A stretch of 64,000 nt of DNA. It comes from Pseudoflavonifractor phocaeensis (lineage in GTDB: Bacteria; Bacillota; Clostridia; Oscillospirales; Oscillospiraceae). The notes beneath the pieces were generated by a model. The model did no database searches and was not told the DNA's origin. It worked only from the letters and a program-made list of their open reading frames with translations. The DNA is taken from positions 1 to 64,000 of the forward strand of contig NZ_JACJLC010000001.1 in assembly GCF_016901955.1 (NCBI RefSeq), given 5' to 3'. The translations under genes were made by a program, and so were the position numbers. This document shows positions 35,506-43,953 of the stretch, piece by piece (positions within the stretch are counted from its first letter, which is position 1; each line of letters starts with the position of its first letter).

Positions 35506-36051
35506 GTGCCCACCGATATGAAAAGAACCATCGCGGAGGCTGCCCAGACTCTGCTGACCGAGCGTCATGTGAAGAAGTTGACAGTCAAGGATATCGTGGA
35601 ACAGTGCCACATTACCCGGCAGGCCTTTTATTATCACTTTGAGGGAATCCCCGAGTTGCTTCGCTGGATGATCGACGGCTACTTTGAGAAGATGATGGAA
35701 GAGACCATGGCCCAGGAGGACGGAGAGGCGGGGCTGCGCTGCTTTTTTGTCCTGGCCATCAACGCCGCCCCCTATGTGATCCATGGGATGAAAAGCAACT
35801 ACGGAGAAGAGCTGGAGCGGCTGTTGCGGCAGAGCTTTCACCGATATTTCGCCCTGGCCTCCCAGCGGAAGCATTTTTACCCCAACTGCACCCATTCCCA
35901 GCTGGAGGTCATACTGCGCTATCACAGTCAGGCCATTCTGGGCCTGCTGGAAGAATGGACGGAGGAGGATACCGAGCGGCTGGATCAGATTGTCCACACC
36001 GTTTACCACATCATGACAGCGGAGATCCCGCCCTGGGATAGCCGCGGCTGA
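35506..36051 (+). CDS. TetR-family regulator
   Basis: 181 aa from a GTG at 35506 (AAAGGAGG about 11 nt upstream; an ATG at 35518 is an alternative). The N-terminal HTH is VKKLTVKDIVEQCHITRQAFYYHFEGIPELL; the rest is an all-helical ligand domain resembling the DhaS-type group. Target unknown; the ftsH operon follows 136 nt downstream after a terminator. Confidence 0.85.
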   Translation: MPTDMKRTIAEAAQTLLTERHVKKLTVKDIVEQCHITRQAFYYHFEGIPELLRWMIDGYFEKMMEETMAQEDGEAGLRCFFVLAINAAPYVIHGMKSNYGEELERLLRQSFHRYFALASQRKHFYPNCTHSQLEVILRYHSQAILGLLEEWTEEDTERLDQIVHTVYHIMTAEIPPWDSRG

Positions 36052-36186: not shown

Positions 36187-36618
36187 ATGGCCCATGAGAT
36201 TCTTTCTGTCAAGCTCTGTGAGCTGGAGGACCAGCTGGCTCGGCTGAGCAGCCGCATCCATCTGAGCGAAACAGCCGGCCGCCCGCAATTACAGCAGGAG
36301 ATCCGGGCCCTGCGCCGGGAGTGTGCCGAAACGGAACTGACTCTGCGGACAAGGCTAACGCATTCCCGGGCGGAAGTGGCGTCCGTTCTAGCGGGCTCTT
36401 ACGGCGAGGTGGAGCAGAGCCTGAAACAAGCCAGGACCACGCTGCGAAAGCAGATATCCCAGAGCGGTGACCCGGAGAGCGCGGCGGAGGGAAAGATCCT
36501 CCTGGCGGAATACGCCCTGGATTTTGCTCTCCAGGCGGCCAACCGGGCTCTGCTACTGGCTATGGAGGCGATCGACGCCCAGGATATGGAACGGAAAGGA
36601 GATAAAGCGTTGTCATGA
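36187..36618 (+). CDS. Helical protein of unknown function
   Basis: 143 aa, Glu/Arg/Leu-rich, predicted almost wholly alpha-helical with a likely coiled coil (about 8-60, [14 protein letters not shown] ... [12 protein letters not shown]). No signal or membrane segment. AAAGGAGG precedes the ATG. It overlaps ftsH by 4 nt, so the two are translationally coupled, and it could be an adaptor or regulator of the protease. I recognise no family. Confidence 0.7.
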
Positions 36619-38421
36619 AAGAAGTAAAAACGCCCAAAAAACCCCTGGTTTACTATTACTGTATTGTATTACTGATCATTTTTCTGTTCAACATCCTTGT
36701 GACTCCTCTGCTTACCCGCAATCAGGTGGTGGAGGTGGACTACGGCACCTTCATGGACATGATCGAGGCGGAGGATGTGGGCGCGGTACAGGTGGAGGAT
36801 ACCCAGATCCTGTTTACGGACAAGGATGGGAGCGCATTATATAAAACCGGCCTGATGGAGGATCCCACCCTCACCCAGCGTCTCCATGACACGGGGGCGG
36901 AATTTACCCGGGTGATCGAAGAGCCCATCTCGCCCATTTGGAGCTTCCTGCTCACCTTTGTGCTACCTATTTTGATCTTTGCCGCCCTGGGTCAATATAT
37001 GAGCAAAAAGCTGATGGAGCAGGCGGGTGGCGGCAAAGGCTCCATGGCATTTGGAATGGGAAAGAGCAATGCCAAGATCTATGTGCAGTCCACCAAGGGG
37101 ATCCGTTTTTCCGATGTAGCCGGCGAGGACGAGGCCAAGGAAAGCCTGGCCGAGGTGGTGGATTATCTGCACAACCCCGGCAAATACAGCCAGGCCGGGG
37201 CTGCCATGCCTAAGGGAATCTTGCTGGTGGGCCCTCCGGGTACCGGCAAGACCATGCTGGCCAAGGCGGTGGCCGGTGAAGCCGACGTTCCCTTCTTCTC
37301 CATTTCCGGGTCGGAGTTTGTGGAGATGTTTGTGGGCATGGGGGCCTCCAAGGTCCGGGACCTGTTCAAGCAGGCCAAGGAAAAAGCGCCTTGTATCGTG
37401 TTTATCGACGAAATCGACGCCATCGGCCAGAAGCGTAGTTCGGGGGGCGGCTACGGCGGCAACGACGAGCGGGAGCAGACCCTCAACCAGCTGCTCACTG
37501 AGATGGACGGATTTGAGGAGAATACCGGCGTCATCATCCTGGCCGCTACCAACCGGCCGGAGTCCCTGGACCCTGCTCTCACCCGCCCTGGCCGGTTTGA
37601 CCGGCGAGTACCGTCTGAAGGTCCACGCCAAGAAGATCAAGACGGCGGAGGATGTAGACTTCCACACCATCGCCCGCATGGCGGCTGGAGCCTCCGGTGC
37701 GGAACTGGCCAATATTATCAACGAGGCCGCCCTTCGGGCGGTGCGCGGTGGCCGCGTTATCGTCAACGAGTCTGACCTGGAGGAAAGCATCGAGGTGGTC
37801 ATCGCTGGGTATCAGAAGAAGAATGCCGTCCTCTCCGACCGGGAGAAGAAGGTGGTGGCCTATCACGAGATCGGCCACGCCCTGGTGGCCGCTATGCAGA
37901 GCCACTCCGCCCCGGTACAGAAGATCACAATCATCCCCCGCACCTCCGGCGCCCTGGGCTACACCATGCAGGTGGACACCGGGGACAAGTACCTGCTGAC
38001 CAAGGAAGAGATAGAGGATAAGATTGCCACCTATACCGGCGGTCGGGCGGCGGAAGAGGTGGTTTTCGGTTCCATCACCACCGGCGCATCCAATGACATC
38101 GAACAGGCCACCAAGCTGGCCCGGGCCATGATCAGCCGGTATGGCATGAGCGAGGAGTTTGATATGGTGGCAATGGAGACGGTGAACAACCAATACCTGG
38201 GAGGCGATTCCTCTCTGGCCTGCGCTCCTGAGACCCAGCGAGAGATCGACCGGAAGGTGGTAGAGCTGGTAAAGACCCAGCATCAAAAGGCCAAAAAGCT
38301 CTTGGAGGACAATCGGGACAAGCTGGACCAGCTGGACCAGCTGGCCGGGTTCCTTTATGAAAAAGAGACCATTACCGGAGAGGAGTTTATGGAGATCCTG
38401 ACAGGAGGGGAGCGGCAATGA
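36615..38421 (+). pseudogene. ftsH: ftsH, frame broken by internal deletion
   Basis: Membrane AAA+ zinc protease in two frames. Frame 1 (from 36615) has TM1 (about 11-33), TM2 (about 107-128), Walker A GPPGTGKT (206-213), Walker B IVFIDEID (261-268) and the arginine-finger region [12 protein letters not shown] (321-332). At about 37613 the reading continues in another frame with [14 protein letters not shown] and onward to 38421, including YHEIGHAL (zinc site) and GGRAAEEVVFG. The usual VELPDLKGREEI-like stretch is missing, consistent with loss of about 35 nt. Frame 1 then stops at 37775. Unless this is an assembly error, no full FtsH is made; the product would lack the peptidase domain. Confidence 0.85.
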
Positions 38422-39945: not shown

Positions 39946-41319
39946 TTATGTTTGATTTCCGCAGGGGTGCTGGCATCCGGTGCAGCTCCACAGCTGGTCC
40001 GCCGTGGGCCTCCAGCTCTCCGCATAGGGCGTGGTGCGGTCGCAGAGGGTGTCCACATCCTCTGGGGCCTCGTAGTCGGTGGATTTGGCTCCCGTCTCCT
40101 TTACCATGGCCCGCAGCTTTTCCGGGTTCTCCAGCATGGGACAGGGCCGGAGCATGTTTTTATTGAAAGGCTGGCCGTCGTGATAGGCCATGAAGATGGG
40201 GGATTTCAGAGCCGCCAGCAGAGTGGAGTTCCGGATATTCACGTTGGAATAGTGGATGAACACGCAGGGCTCCACATCGCCCCGGGCGTTGATGTGCAGG
40301 TAGCGCCGCCCACCGGCGATACAGCCGCCCACATACTCTGCGTCGTTCTGGAAGTCCATGGAGAAAATGGGCTTGGTGCCGCGGAAAGCCCGGATGCGGC
40401 GGTACATCTCCGCTCGCTGCTCGGGGGTAGGCAGCAGAGCGGGGACAGCCCCGTTCCCCACGGGCATGTAGTGGAAGAACCAGATGAACAGAGCGCCGGC
40501 ATCAATGATCTGATCAAAATAGGCCTCGCTGCTCACATCCTGCCAGTTGGCGCTGGTGTAACAGGTGGAGATACCGAAGGGCAGACCGTGGGACTTCAAC
40601 AGGACCATGGCCTGATGTACCTTTTCATAGATACCCTGTCCACGGCGACCGTCGTTGGCCTCCTCGAAGCCCTCCAGAGAAATGGCGGGAACGAAGTTCT
40701 TTACCCGCAGCATCTCATGACAGAAATCCTCGTCAATGAGGGTGCCGTTGGTGAAGGAGAGGAACTCACAGTCGGGATGCTTCTCGCACAGGGCGATAAC
40801 GTCCTTTTTGCGCACCAGAGGCTCACCGCCGGTGAAAATATACATATAGGTGCCCAACTTCTTGCCCTGGGTGATGATGGAGTCCATCTCATCAAAGGAC
40901 AGGTTCAGCTTGTTGCCGTATTCTGCCGCCCAGCAGCCGGTGCAGTGGAGATTGCAGGCAGAGGTGGGGTCCAGCAGAATGGCCCAGGGTATGTTACAGT
41001 TTTCCCGGGCTGCCGTCTCATCTTGGGTGGCGCTGCCCATTAGACTAGCGTTGAGTATGAAATTCCGGAAGAAGGCCTTGCGGACCCCGGGATCCAAGGC
41101 ATACACTCGCATGATAAGCTGGTACCAGTTGTTGTTCTTGTCCGTAATCACGTTCCGGAACGCGTTCCGTTGGGAGACATACCAGTCGTCAGGGACCACC
41201 TTGTCCACCAGATCCATCAGCTTTGGAATATTGGCCTCCGGATCCTTTTCCAAGTAGCTCAAGGCCTGATTGATGGCCACACGGAGTGCGGCGTTTTTGG
41301 CCTTGTCTGAGATACTCAT
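39946..41319 (-). CDS. Radical SAM/SPASM protein
   Basis: 457 aa from the ATG at 41319 (GAGGTC upstream). A helical N-terminal region (1-105) precedes a radical SAM core with CNLHCTGC (Cys 122, 126, 129) and the SAM-binding FTGGEPL. The C-terminal SPASM-like region has further cysteines (GGCIAGGRRYLHINARGDVEPCVF ... SCTGCQHPCG) for auxiliary clusters. Related to enzymes that modify peptides or cofactors; no precursor peptide is evident nearby. It is divergent from a paralogue lacking the cluster cysteines. Confidence 0.88.
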   Translation of the reverse strand: MSISDKAKNAALRVAINQALSYLEKDPEANIPKLMDLVDKVVPDDWYVSQRNAFRNVITDKNNNWYQLIMRVYALDPGVRKAFFRNFILNASLMGSATQDETAARENCNIPWAILLDPTSACNLHCTGCWAAEYGNKLNLSFDEMDSIITQGKKLGTYMYIFTGGEPLVRKKDVIALCEKHPDCEFLSFTNGTLIDEDFCHEMLRVKNFVPAISLEGFEEANDGRRGQGIYEKVHQAMVLLKSHGLPFGISTCYTSANWQDVSSEAYFDQIIDAGALFIWFFHYMPVGNGAVPALLPTPEQRAEMYRRIRAFRGTKPIFSMDFQNDAEYVGGCIAGGRRYLHINARGDVEPCVFIHYSNVNIRNSTLLAALKSPIFMAYHDGQPFNKNMLRPCPMLENPEKLRAMVKETGAKSTDYEAPEDVDTLCDRTTPYAESWRPTADQLWSCTGCQHPCGNQT

Positions 41320-41434
41320 AAAAATGACCTCGCTTTTTCTAATATTGCGGGATATCCGCCGTTGGGGCAGATGCTCCACGGTTTTGGATTACCCACATTT
41401 TAAGACAGGATAAAGGACTTGTCATGGGACACCA

Positions 41435-41468
41435 TGAGAAAACTGTGTCATTTTTCGCTGTTTTCTCA
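41435..41468. promoter_or_regulatory. Inverted repeat between the radical SAM pair
   Basis: Perfect 9-bp arms TGAGAAAAC (41435-41443) and GTTTTCTCA (41460-41468) with a 16-nt spacer; a CATGG-GACA-CCATG repeat lies next to it at 41422-41435. Possible operator for the nearby TetR protein. Confidence 0.4.
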
Positions 41469-41529
41469 AAAGTGTTACCTTTTTATACAATTGGGGCAAG
41501 TTGTCTATATCATCCGGCGGGGCTCCTTT

Positions 41530-41535
41530 TTATAA
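41530..41535 (+). promoter_or_regulatory. Possible -10 box of radical SAM paralogue
   Basis: TATAAT at about 41530, with a poor -35. If used, translation begins at 41616 or 41631 rather than further upstream. Confidence 0.35.
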
Positions 41536-41615
41536 TGGCAGACATCCAGGCGGAACCACCGAAGGCCAACGCTGGGTCGGGGAGACAGCCTGCGGAAAAG
41601 GAGTGGCAGACGAGT

Positions 41616-42650
41616 ATGACGGGAGCACGAATGAAACGGGCCATGACGGAGGTCATCGTTCGTCGGGGCTTCCATGCGATCCGGAGAGACCCCAAGCGGG
41701 CGCTTCGGAATCTGGTGGATCTGGGGCAGGAGACTGCCGGGGGGCAGTTTCAGAGAAAGTTCCTGGGCATGGCCCAACAGGTCCTGACCCATGAGGACAG
41801 CCTCTACTACACCCTGATCCAAAAGACAATCCAGTCGGTGGATGAGGAGCGCCTACTTACCTTCGGAATGAATCTGGGCTGGAACGGCCTGGTCCAGGGC
41901 GCCAAGCAGATCCGGACCGAGGAGGCCCGGCGGGGGCACAACATCCCCTGGTCACTAACCTTTCATATAGAAGCGGGGCCAGACAGCCTTTCCGCCAAGG
42001 AATATCTCTGCCTGATTCGGGAGGGGACTGAATTGGGCGTCTATACCTATTTCCTGTTTCCGAGGGATAGCCCTTCCGTTCAGTTCTCCATTGACCTATG
42101 CCAGTCCAATAGGGGCTGCGCCTTTTGTATTATGCTGCCCCCTGGTCTGGAAGAGCAGCGCCGGAACGAGCTCTGCCCCAATACGATCCTGGGTGTGGAT
42201 ACCTCTGGGGAAGACTGGATGGAGCAGGTGCAGTGGCTAAGGGACGGGAAATACCCCTATCTGCTCTACCGCGCCTATTCCACGCCAGAGGATGTGGAGG
42301 ACATCATATCCGGGCGATGGGCGGAGCGGATTATGCCCCAGGCCGGTGTGGCAGCCCTGCTGGTCGCAGCGGGGGATATGGCGTTTCCAAAGGGTTCCCC
42401 TGTCTATGAATATGCGCTGGATGCCCGGCTGAAGCAGCGGTATCCCACGGTGATGCTGGATTTCTATCACGATAACATCTATGCCGACCGGTGTATCTCA
42501 GGCGCTCCCTGCTTTTTCGGAGTCCTACCGGACGGTATCGTTACGGAGTATTGCCTGGGCCGTGAGAAGCCTACGATATATTCTGTCAGGACGCAGCCGC
42601 TGGAGGAGCTATTTCGACGATTTTCCAGGTCAGGCCAGTTTGAGACATGA
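41616..42650 (+). CDS. Degenerate radical SAM paralogue (cysteines lost)
   Basis: 344 aa from the ATG at 41616 (GGAG upstream; an ATG at 41631 with GGGAGC is equally possible; the frame is open to 41424). It aligns with the divergent radical SAM protein over its length: HNIPWSLTFHIEAG with CNIPWAILLDPTS, LGVYTYFLFPRDSP with LGTYMYIFTGGEP, DLCQSNRGCAFCIM with ALCEKHPDCEFLSF, and DRCISGAPCFFGVLPDGIVTEYC with the SPASM-like segment. The whole CX3CX2C segment is absent and GGEP is replaced by RDSP, so it should not bind the SAM cluster. It may be a non-catalytic partner of the intact protein. Confidence 0.8.
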   Translation: MTGARMKRAMTEVIVRRGFHAIRRDPKRALRNLVDLGQETAGGQFQRKFLGMAQQVLTHEDSLYYTLIQKTIQSVDEERLLTFGMNLGWNGLVQGAKQIRTEEARRGHNIPWSLTFHIEAGPDSLSAKEYLCLIREGTELGVYTYFLFPRDSPSVQFSIDLCQSNRGCAFCIMLPPGLEEQRRNELCPNTILGVDTSGEDWMEQVQWLRDGKYPYLLYRAYSTPEDVEDIISGRWAERIMPQAGVAALLVAAGDMAFPKGSPVYEYALDARLKQRYPTVMLDFYHDNIYADRCISGAPCFFGVLPDGIVTEYCLGREKPTIYSVRTQPLEELFRRFSRSGQFET

Positions 42651-42654
42651 AAAC

Positions 42655-42684
42655 AGGAGCTGTCGCAAAATCGCGACAGCTCCT
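42655..42684. terminator. Terminator between convergent genes
   Basis: Perfect 12-bp stem, 6-nt loop, followed on the plus strand by GAGTTTTATT. Confidence 0.8.
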
Positions 42685-42692
42685 GAGTTTTA

Positions 42693-43322
42693 TTATTCTG
42701 AATGCCGGAGAGGAGCCTGTTCAGCGTCCCCGTCCGGCTCCTGCACCTGCTTGCTGCCCTGTAGGTGGATCAGGTCGTCGGTGCTGCGCAGCAGGGCCAC
42801 AAAATCCTCCGGCGGCAACTCGATCCCTTCATTCAGCCAGCGAAGGATAGCGACTAACACGGCGTCCGAGATAAAGTGGGAGTAGAAGGACTGGGCTGCC
42901 TCGGGCGTCACGCCACCCTGGACTGCCACCATACGGAGCTCGCCGGGATCCGGCATGATGAAATGCTCCACAAAGTGGAGCAAGAGACTCTGGAAATACT
43001 GGCGGAAGGAGTTCTGCCCGCTGAACTGCATTAGCTTTCCGTAGAAATCCCGCTCCTGATAGAGGTATTGGCACAGGGCCTCCACCACGGCCCAGCGGTC
43101 GTCTGCGGGGGAGTTCTTCATTACGCTGATGAACTCAGTCTCAAAGATCCACTCCACCAGGGCGTACTTGTCCTGAAAGTGGTAGTAAAAGGTCTTGCGG
43201 CTCACTTGACAGGCTTCACAGATGTCGTTGACGCCCACCTTCTCAAAAGCTTGGTTACGCACAAGACTCTTTAAGGCCAAAGCCAGTGCCTTCTTTGTTA
43301 AATTGGACTCCGCCATGGCCAT
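42693..43322 (-). CDS. TetR-family regulator
   Basis: 209 aa from the ATG at 43322 (GGGGAGGG upstream). HTH FEKVGVNDICEACQVSRKTFYYHFQDKYALVEW, then a helical C-terminal domain; an acidic/Gln tail (QVQEPDGDAEQ). Probably controls the radical SAM pair, judging only from position and the inverted repeats at 41422-41468. Confidence 0.87.
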   Translation of the reverse strand: MAMAESNLTKKALALALKSLVRNQAFEKVGVNDICEACQVSRKTFYYHFQDKYALVEWIFETEFISVMKNSPADDRWAVVEALCQYLYQERDFYGKLMQFSGQNSFRQYFQSLLLHFVEHFIMPDPGELRMVAVQGGVTPEAAQSFYSHFISDAVLVAILRWLNEGIELPPEDFVALLRSTDDLIHLQGSKQVQEPDGDAEQAPLRHSE

Positions 43323-43429: not shown

Positions 43430-43953
43430 GCTTCTATGAGCGATGCTTTATTCTCCAAGTCCACATCCCTGATTTTGATATTGCCGATGGCAGCCGCTCG
43501 ACACCCGTTATTCAGCAGGAGATTGACCGTGACCCAATTCCGGTATTCGGGGAAATCTCATTTCCTGGTACTGGGCTTGCAGACCAGGGCTTTTAATTCC
43601 TCTTCGGTATAGGTTTCCTTCACCGTTTCCTCCGCCTTGTAGAGAGGCTGGTTGAGCCGGGTGACTCCCTCCGCGTTGCACCGGGAAAAGAAGGATTTCA
43701 GCGTCCGGGTATTGCTCTTGCTGGAGTTGGCCGCAAGGCCCGCGTCCCGCATGGAGGAAATCGTGGTCTCCAGGTCTGCCTTTTTCAGTTTGTCTATTTG
43801 GGTATCCGCAGAAAGATGCTTACTGAATGCGGAAAAATGCTGCCCATATGTGGAAATGGCCTTTTCGCTCAGACCCCAGGCGTTCCTTGCCGTGAGAATG
43901 TGGTGAAAGGTGTCCGCTACGGTTACGCTGTTTTTCATCTTGATTTTTGCCAT
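43430..43953 (-). pseudogene. Tyrosine integrase remnant
   Basis: The first 131 codons form a normal N-terminal SAM-like and start of catalytic domain (MAKIKMKNSVTVADTFHHIL ... YTEEELKALVCKPSTRK). A TGA at 43558-43560, where relatives have Cys, interrupts it; the same frame continues with DFPEYRNWVTVNLLLNNGCRAAAIGNIKIRDVDLEN, including the first catalytic Arg, and homology ends near 43430. The HxxR and Tyr parts are missing. GGAGTG precedes the ATG. It is the relic of an element integrated beside tRNA-Pro. Confidence 0.8.

Follow-up and report, generated by a model that had tools for sequence, protein, structure and literature searches.

The closest described counterpart of the locus reported here is the DhaS-DhaQ-DhaK system of Lactococcus lactis. 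DhaS is an unusual TetR protein, since it activates transcription and requires DhaQ. The latter binds dihydroxyacetone but, although a paralogue of DhaK, is not a working kinase subunit. DhaS protects the sequence GGACACAT-N6-ATTTGTCC, the proximal half of which overlaps the -35 element; this sequence contains GACA-N12-TGTC, which we take to be the same operator form as the sites described below. The system was reportedly described by Christen et al. in 2006. Here we analysed a gene module in a 64,000-nucleotide stretch of Pseudoflavonifractor phocaeensis DNA (contig NZ_JACJLC010000001.1, positions 1 to 64,000; hereafter the window). The module is composed of a 457-amino-acid radical S-adenosylmethionine (SAM) protein (the enzyme), a divergently encoded protein of 344 amino acids (the pseudo-enzyme) and a convergent regulator of 209 amino acids (the TetR). 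We consider it well supported that the enzyme, its catalytically dead paralogue and the DhaS-like TetR form a conserved three-gene unit. By analogy with DhaQ, the pseudo-enzyme may be a ligand sensor that co-activates the TetR, a tentative reading that we rate as nearly balanced between likely and unlikely.

The earlier note on this DNA had remarked that the two divergent proteins align at several places, and this was borne out. By blastp the alignment covered residues 6-186 with E = 1e-10, and a comparison of profiles (30 versus 19 sequences) covered 331 columns, the full length, with a probability of 99.9 and E = 3.5e-36. On these alignments, the enzyme and the pseudo-enzyme are to be regarded as full-length homologues and not as a chance similarity. 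The enzyme contains CX3CX2C (C122, C126 and C129), GGEP (164-167) and SPASM-like cysteines. It matched Pfam Radical_SAM with 59.1 bits and scored 19 bits against Pfam SPASM (cut-off 21.5), to which a paralogue in the same genome scored 25.5; C333, C352 and C393 are present in 98% of 44 intact enzymes. Its structural model had a predicted local distance difference test score (pLDDT) of 84, and the nearest folds were SuiB, SkfB and anSME (Z 21-22). The pseudo-enzyme of the window matched no Pfam or NCBIfam model in searches up to E = 1. Its AlphaFold model, built from a 30-sequence alignment, had a mean pLDDT of 92, and the best re-aligned PDB structure was PqqE (Z 15.7, root-mean-square deviation (rmsd) 4.0, 223 residues aligned), with SuiB (Z 15.1, rmsd 4.2, 242 aligned) and SkfB (Z 14.9, rmsd 4.3, 232 aligned) close to it. 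Judged from the model, the pseudo-enzyme confidently has the radical SAM-like beta/alpha barrel that marks the superfamily fold, the PDB matches barely covering the helical domain of residues 1-86.

The earlier note had also claimed that the second protein lacks CX3CX2C and GGEP, and a joint alignment with 44 intact enzymes (two short radical SAM-like sequences omitted) extended this claim to all 56 pseudo-enzymes. C126 and C129 were found in none of the pseudo-enzymes and C122 in two; all 56 are gapped at C126 and C129 through a common deletion of about 14 residues, and positions 164-167 of GGEP are variable. Among the SPASM auxiliary-cluster cysteines, C393 was found in none, and C333 and C352 in three each. 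By these residues the pseudo-enzyme should be counted neither as a catalytic radical SAM member, for which it lacks CX3CX2C and GGE(P), nor as a SPASM-domain protein, for which it lacks the auxiliary-cluster cysteines. The cysteine of a 'C-x-F' motif common to both proteins (C184/C168) is kept in 37 of the 56. The enzymes have 146 positions that are at least 95% invariant, and at 22 of these at least half of the pseudo-enzymes have the same residue. Family residues outside the SAM site that are common to both include Y66, N86, G95, P111, W112, R313 and D326. Sixteen positions are at least 75% conserved in the pseudo-enzymes with a residue differing from the commonest one of the enzymes, and 14 of them cluster in the helical domain, within residues 1-105, for which the chance probability is 2e-6. 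The loss of the motifs, together with this N-terminal clustering, suggests that the SAM machinery was dropped and that the N-terminal domain came under new constraints.

The 56 pseudo-enzymes formed one clade with a long stem (support 0.805) in a tree of 102 sequences. The ratio of nonsynonymous to synonymous substitution rates (dN/dS) was 0.13-0.39 in all eight pseudo-enzyme pairs, values which are rough since dS exceeded 1 in four of the eight, and 0.03-0.15 in all six enzyme pairs; the values for L089-L090 and L043-L045 are likewise rough, as these open reading frames (ORFs) carry over-long N-termini. In six pairs, dN of the pseudo-enzyme was 2.5 to 7 times that of the enzyme. The catalytic cysteines are gone from the second gene, as might be expected of a decaying pseudogene. 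This explanation retains virtually no probability, being refuted by a single clade of 56 members with the same deletion, by the dN/dS values, by the confident fold and by a conserved promoter architecture. The earlier note had named relatives with cysteines as a sign of decay, but no member of the clade has the set of three. Its proposal of a retained non-catalytic paralogue is thus upheld by clade, dN/dS and fold; the role of substrate adaptor or inhibitor that it attached to this proposal is conjectural.

A profile scan of 300 genomes of the family revealed 30 pseudo-enzymes in 29 genomes, scoring 317-461 bits (E up to 1e-30). All other matches scored 156 bits or less, which leaves a clean gap, with the exception of a second and strongly diverged pseudo-enzyme in G003 (145 bits). 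This copy (L100 3712-4644) sits between a TetR and an enzyme gene, and G003 also has a standard one. In a phylum-wide sample, matches were found in seven of 398 genomes (E up to 1e-55), the genome of the window included, and the other six belong to six other families; the clade spans several families of Firmicutes. The best matches among named records were from an uncultured Oscillospiraceae bacterium, Candidatus Intestinimonas and Flavonifractor sp. An92. Members of the pseudo-enzyme family occur in Oscillospiraceae and as far afield as Tissierella, Syntrophomonas and Butyrivibrio, and in the named records of the last three, the enzyme and TetR genes adjoin that of the pseudo-enzyme.

Gene order was compared in 55 distinct loci, comprising the window, 29 loci of the other pseudo-enzymes in alignment set A1 and 25 of 30 loci from a contig scan, of which L069, L071 and L073-L075 were dropped as duplicates; a 31st match of the scan, L099, was omitted as it contains the enzyme and a DegV gene alone. 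All three genes were found in 28 loci, the TetR without the enzyme in nine, the enzyme without the TetR in five and neither in 13. Two of the five enzyme-only loci (L048 and L049) end where the TetR would be expected, and in L039, one of the 28 complete loci, the TetR lies 5 kb away. The commonest order is enzyme (-), pseudo-enzyme (+) and TetR (-), with the enzyme reversed in L088.

Co-occurrence in the 300 family genomes was scored with thresholds of at least 200 bits for the TetR and E of at most 1e-60 for the enzyme. The TetR was found in 26 of 29 genomes with a pseudo-enzyme versus nine of the 271 genomes without one (phi 0.79, Fisher p 1e-26), as detected by a profile built from linked TetRs, which biases toward finding the TetR. 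The enzyme was found in 25 of the 29 versus 77 of the 271 (p 1.5e-9, phi 0.36). The pseudo-enzyme tracks the TetR more tightly than it tracks the enzyme. TetR and pseudo-enzyme are on different contigs in G150, G240 and G278 and 14-24 kb apart in G078 and G195; the contigs of G134 and G194 end at the pseudo-enzyme, and G273 has the TetR but no enzyme at the threshold.

The three proteins were also compared through partial distance correlations in the 28 complete loci. The correlation was 0.60 between pseudo-enzyme and TetR given the enzyme, 0.59 between pseudo-enzyme and enzyme given the TetR (0 of 2000 permutations as high in each case) and -0.21 between enzyme and TetR given the pseudo-enzyme. 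Three reduced sets gave 0.50-0.64, 0.53-0.59 and -0.11 to -0.24, respectively. In the distance matrices the pseudo-enzyme is the member linking enzyme and TetR, a result that is supportive and not decisive, as the test is weakened by gene linkage, saturated distances and the slow evolution of the enzyme.

These numbers bear on the main rival explanation, in which the dead copy would be a non-catalytic subunit of the enzyme (a carrier, scaffold or allosteric activator) and the TetR would co-express the two halves. Divergent expression from a single operator set would suit such a subunit, as would the adjoining of enzyme and pseudo-enzyme in 33 of the 55 loci, the correlation of their distances given the TetR, the residues shared outside the SAM site (e.g. 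Y66, W112, R313 and D326) and the precedent of the trypanosome AdoMetDC prozyme (PMC5201418). However, the 77 genomes mentioned have the enzyme and no pseudo-enzyme, so that the enzyme does not require it, four of the 29 pseudo-enzyme genomes have no enzyme at the threshold, in nine loci the pseudo-enzyme has the TetR as its sole partner, and its dN far exceeds that of the enzyme. We regard this explanation as unlikely, though it deserves more weight than the other alternatives. Because the pseudo-enzyme is tied to the TetR at least as closely as to the enzyme, sensing or co-activation fits better than the role of adaptor or inhibitor.

The earlier note had suggested common control by the TetR gene and shared inverted repeats, and this is now strongly supported by site conservation and promoter geometry. 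In 25 regions between enzyme and pseudo-enzyme genes (L090 and L097 omitted, as well as regions not longer than 150 bases), we found 24 exact GACA-N12-TGTC sites in 18 regions, against 0.1 expected from dinucleotide shuffles. With L090, L097 and the five duplicates omitted, an exact site is present between -300 and +60 for 31 of 53 pseudo-enzyme genes and for 24 of 34 enzyme genes, where a site between divergent genes belongs to both. The corresponding numbers are just six of 35 for TetR genes and one of 13 for DegV genes. General autoregulation of the TetR gene is unsupported by the six of 35. The sites are present and conserved at the module promoters; their identity with the DhaS operator is presumed, and binding of the TetR to them is predicted.

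Promoter geometry was determined for those genes that have a site (at most one mismatch, or exact with N11), 40 for the pseudo-enzyme and 29 for the enzyme, the expected counts being derived from shuffled downstream bases. The distance from the 3' end of the site to the -10 box was 25 bp in 15 pseudo-enzyme promoters versus 0.45 expected, and in 14 enzyme promoters versus 0.36 expected. A second peak at 53-54 bp is consistent with tandem sites 29 bp apart. Among unlinked enzyme or enzyme-like promoters, the 25-bp placement was found in 18 of 23, or in 16 of 21 new promoters, since L067 and L068 were already in the linked set. As the site ends just upstream of the -35 element, its position is activator-like. 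At the pseudo-enzyme promoter of the window, we found no evident -35 element; the enzyme promoter has a good one, ATGACA.

The TetR of the window scored 107.8 bits against NCBIfam DhaS TIGR02366, below the cut-off of 129 and so short of the equivalog, and matched Pfam TetR_C_8. Five relatives scored 116-141 bits against the DhaS model, one of them above the cut-off. The nearest solved sequences were 4mk6, probably a regulator of dihydroxyacetone kinase, and 2iu5, which is DhaS. By these matches the TetR is classified as DhaS-like. Separately, a second regulator of the DhaS/TetR_C_8 type (35506-36051, +; TIGR02366 54.9 bits) lies in the window several kilobases from the module.

The operator-like sites are not confined to the module. 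Besides the enzyme, the genome of the window encodes C213, a further intact enzyme of 68% identity, and C25, which is enzyme-like but shorter (37%), and both genes have an operator-like site 25 bp from the -10 box, that of C25 with one mismatch. The C25 gene is followed by genes for adenosylhomocysteinase and methionine adenosyltransferase. Eight genomes carry the short enzyme-like type, and in all seven regions examined, which do not include G019, its relatives and those of these two genes stand together (L068 5364-9051, L104 1053-4722 and L133-L137), with 1.6 kb between the last two genes of the trio in L135. The short radical SAM-like gene keeps CX3CX2C, and in L068 the SPASM part is missing. 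Tandem sites 29 bp apart were found in four of the seven regions; the remaining three have one site each, 25 bp from the -10 box. The sites beside this trio indicate that the operators reach the SAM cycle. A separate observation concerns the second intact enzyme, downstream of which a TrpX-like ABC transporter is encoded (L067 5178-9599): a substrate-binding protein with 213 bits to NF041285 (cut-off 390), a putative permease without NCBIfam match and an ATPase.

We infer a co-activator role of the pseudo-enzyme along the following steps. The TetR would act as an activator at the divergent promoters, and the dead enzyme would keep binding the substrate or product of the enzyme in its barrel. 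Its helical domain at the N-terminus, which is re-modelled, might serve to dock it on the TetR, and transcription of enzyme and pseudo-enzyme would thereby be made ligand-dependent. This is the account that we favour. A sensor could do without the catalytic site yet would need the barrel and a newly shaped N-terminal surface; it would be expected to occur together with the TetR, and operators at activator positions would suit it.

Several observations weigh against the sensor, besides the bias of the TetR profile mentioned above. Three genomes (G002, G108 and G132) have a pseudo-enzyme without TetR or enzyme at the thresholds used. Conversely, nine of the 271 genomes have the TetR without a pseudo-enzyme, and in five of these (L101-L105) the TetR and an intact enzyme lie within about 1 kb. 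Exact operator sites are found upstream of the enzyme in L101, L102 and L105, and none was found upstream of the enzyme in L103 or of the intact enzyme of L104. Because TetR-enzyme pairs with operators exist without it, the pseudo-enzyme is not always needed. No TetR above 200 bits was found in G182, G232 and G271, yet their enzyme or enzyme-like genes are preceded by the operator, which may there be read by other DhaS-like TetRs. Finally, the only exact site of the window lies inside the enzyme core promoter, a repressor-like place.

A further objection comes from the DegV gene, identified by a Pfam DegV match of 235 bits. Of the 33 loci that hold both enzyme and pseudo-enzyme, 14 have this gene after the enzyme (in two pieces in L089), and in L066 it takes the place of the enzyme; in the window no DegV was found between the enzyme and its neighbour gene. 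The copy in L055 scored 116.9 bits against FakB1 NF038249, below the cut-off of 350, and passed the general DegV model (248.9 versus 99.7). A DegV beside the enzyme hints that the TetR may sense a fatty acid directly, and the pseudo-enzyme would then be a competing inhibitor or sink that damps the enzyme or titrates its substrate. The same direction is indicated by Streptococcus pneumoniae FasR, which according to PMC12647141 adjoins fakB3 and is a positive regulator of fabM and possibly of fakB3. This explanation would leave the tight co-occurrence of pseudo-enzyme and TetR and the new conserved N-terminal residues without a cause, and we hold it to be quite improbable.

As the closest solved folds of the enzyme are mostly SPASM modifiers of peptides or proteins (SuiB, SkfB and anSME), we also considered that the trio might be a peptide-modification system of the type that makes ribosomally synthesized and post-translationally modified peptides, with the pseudo-enzyme as peptide-recognition partner. 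A search for a recurrent small ORF family beside the pair found none among the eight largest clusters of 1735 small ORFs from 53 loci, the largest cluster covering six loci, with its L065 members antisense to a P-type ATPase gene, and the next at most four. The Pfam families of the neighbours are of other kinds (first 25 of 163 listed). Such a system lacks support and seems very improbable. The Pfam scan of neighbours found P-type ATPase in five and DUF308 in three proteins among the 95 scanned of the 105 listed. In addition, a VTT-domain-like membrane protein is encoded near the module in L047, L055, L057 and L066, with Pfam VTT matched in two neighbours.

The features of the locus are listed in the table. 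The pseudo-enzyme frame is open up to 42650, and its listed ORF starts at 41424. We used ATG 41616 as the start, which is the likely one because the -10 box overlaps the ATG at 41535, the start of the close relative L039 lines up with 41616, and a Shine-Dalgarno sequence AAGGAG (41598-41603) lies 12 bases before it. What counts against this start is a translated match to L039 (51%) over residues 2-46 of the long ORF; we read this stretch as conserved promoter DNA because it falls in a separate ORF in L039. The inverted repeat behind the pseudo-enzyme is likely a two-way terminator serving this gene and the TetR gene, which converge on it. A short ORF (43558-43953, -) lies right behind the TetR gene and by eye resembles the N-terminal part of a tyrosine integrase. 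Elsewhere in the window, ftsH (36615-38421, +) seems, by eye, to be spread over two frames that overlap (36615-37775 and 37276-38421), suggestive of a frameshift or of misassembly.

Table. Positions of the module genes and of the predicted control elements in the window.
Feature	Position	Strand	Remarks
Intact radical SAM/SPASM-like enzyme	41319..39946	-	457 aa; motif and Pfam evidence
Pseudo-radical SAM protein	41616..42650	+	344 aa; without CX3CX2C, GGEP and SPASM cysteine set
DhaS-like TetR-family regulator	42693..43322	-	209 aa; convergent with pseudo-enzyme; profile and PDB matches
Inverted repeat between pseudo-enzyme and TetR genes	42654..42685	.	by eye
Operator-like TACA-N12-TGTC (1 mismatch)	41486..41505	.	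3' end 25 bp from pseudo-enzyme -10
Operator-like GACA-N12-TGTG (1 mismatch)	41428..41447	.	3' end 25 bp from enzyme -10, minus strand
Exact operator-like GACA-N12-TGTC	41404..41423	.	within enzyme core promoter
-10 box TATAAT, pseudo-enzyme promoter	41531..41536	+	
Enzyme core promoter	41397..41425	-	-35 ATGACA 41425..41420, -10 TAAAAT 41402..41397, 17-bp spacer

In the literature we found nothing on radical SAM together with DegV (with or without TetR) or on pseudo-radical SAM proteins, which does not establish their absence from print. Searches for radical SAM with pseudoenzyme and for broader sets of terms gave no title on the module among the matches listed, one set being swamped by 'pseudo-sample'. 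A wider claim would be that pseudo-radical SAM proteins are widespread and unnamed ligand-sensing co-activators in Firmicutes, which dock on a DhaS-type TetR and signal the substrate to scattered target genes, among them in some genomes those for adenosylhomocysteinase and SAM synthetase, with DhaQ/DhaS as one case of a general rule. This claim is possible and, in our view, somewhat doubtful. If the rule holds, DhaS-type activators recruit inactive copies of the enzymes they control. If the pseudo-enzyme is a co-activator, a radical SAM barrel stripped of its cluster has been turned into a sensor, and the co-activation of a TetR protein by a dead enzyme, as with DhaQ, extends to an unrelated fold. 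Seeking the ligand of the cluster-free copy would then be a route to the substrate of this radical SAM family.

Compared with DhaS-DhaQ-DhaK, the module differs in that its enzyme and putative sensor are radical SAM proteins and not dihydroxyacetone kinase and its copy, in the score of its TetR below the equivalog cut-off, and in a ligand and a complex that are putative. It resembles that system in a TetR of the DhaS kind, an adjoining inactive paralogue of the controlled enzyme, and the operator form with its place at the -35 region. NCBIfam TIGR04347 (pseudo_SAM_Halo) is likewise a radical SAM/SPASM relative called 'pseudo-SAM' by its curators, but the pseudo-enzyme of the window did not match it up to E = 1 and the enzyme scored 45.9 versus a cut-off of 525. 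FasR of S. pneumoniae (SPV_0647) is a TetR activator with 4MK6 and DhaS among the top matches of its predicted fold, and is encoded beside fakB3, a FakB (DegV-type) gene; the passages of PMC12647141 bearing on it mention no radical SAM or pseudo-enzyme gene, and report that no operator was found, whereas the module has a clear one. Since the DegV link recalls FasR and fakB3, an acyl ligand is worth considering, perhaps one bound by the TetR directly. The trypanosome AdoMetDC prozyme (PMC5201418) belongs to an unrelated enzyme and works in the enzyme complex, not through a transcription factor; like the pseudo-enzyme as proposed here, it is an inactive paralogue retained for control of its active partner.

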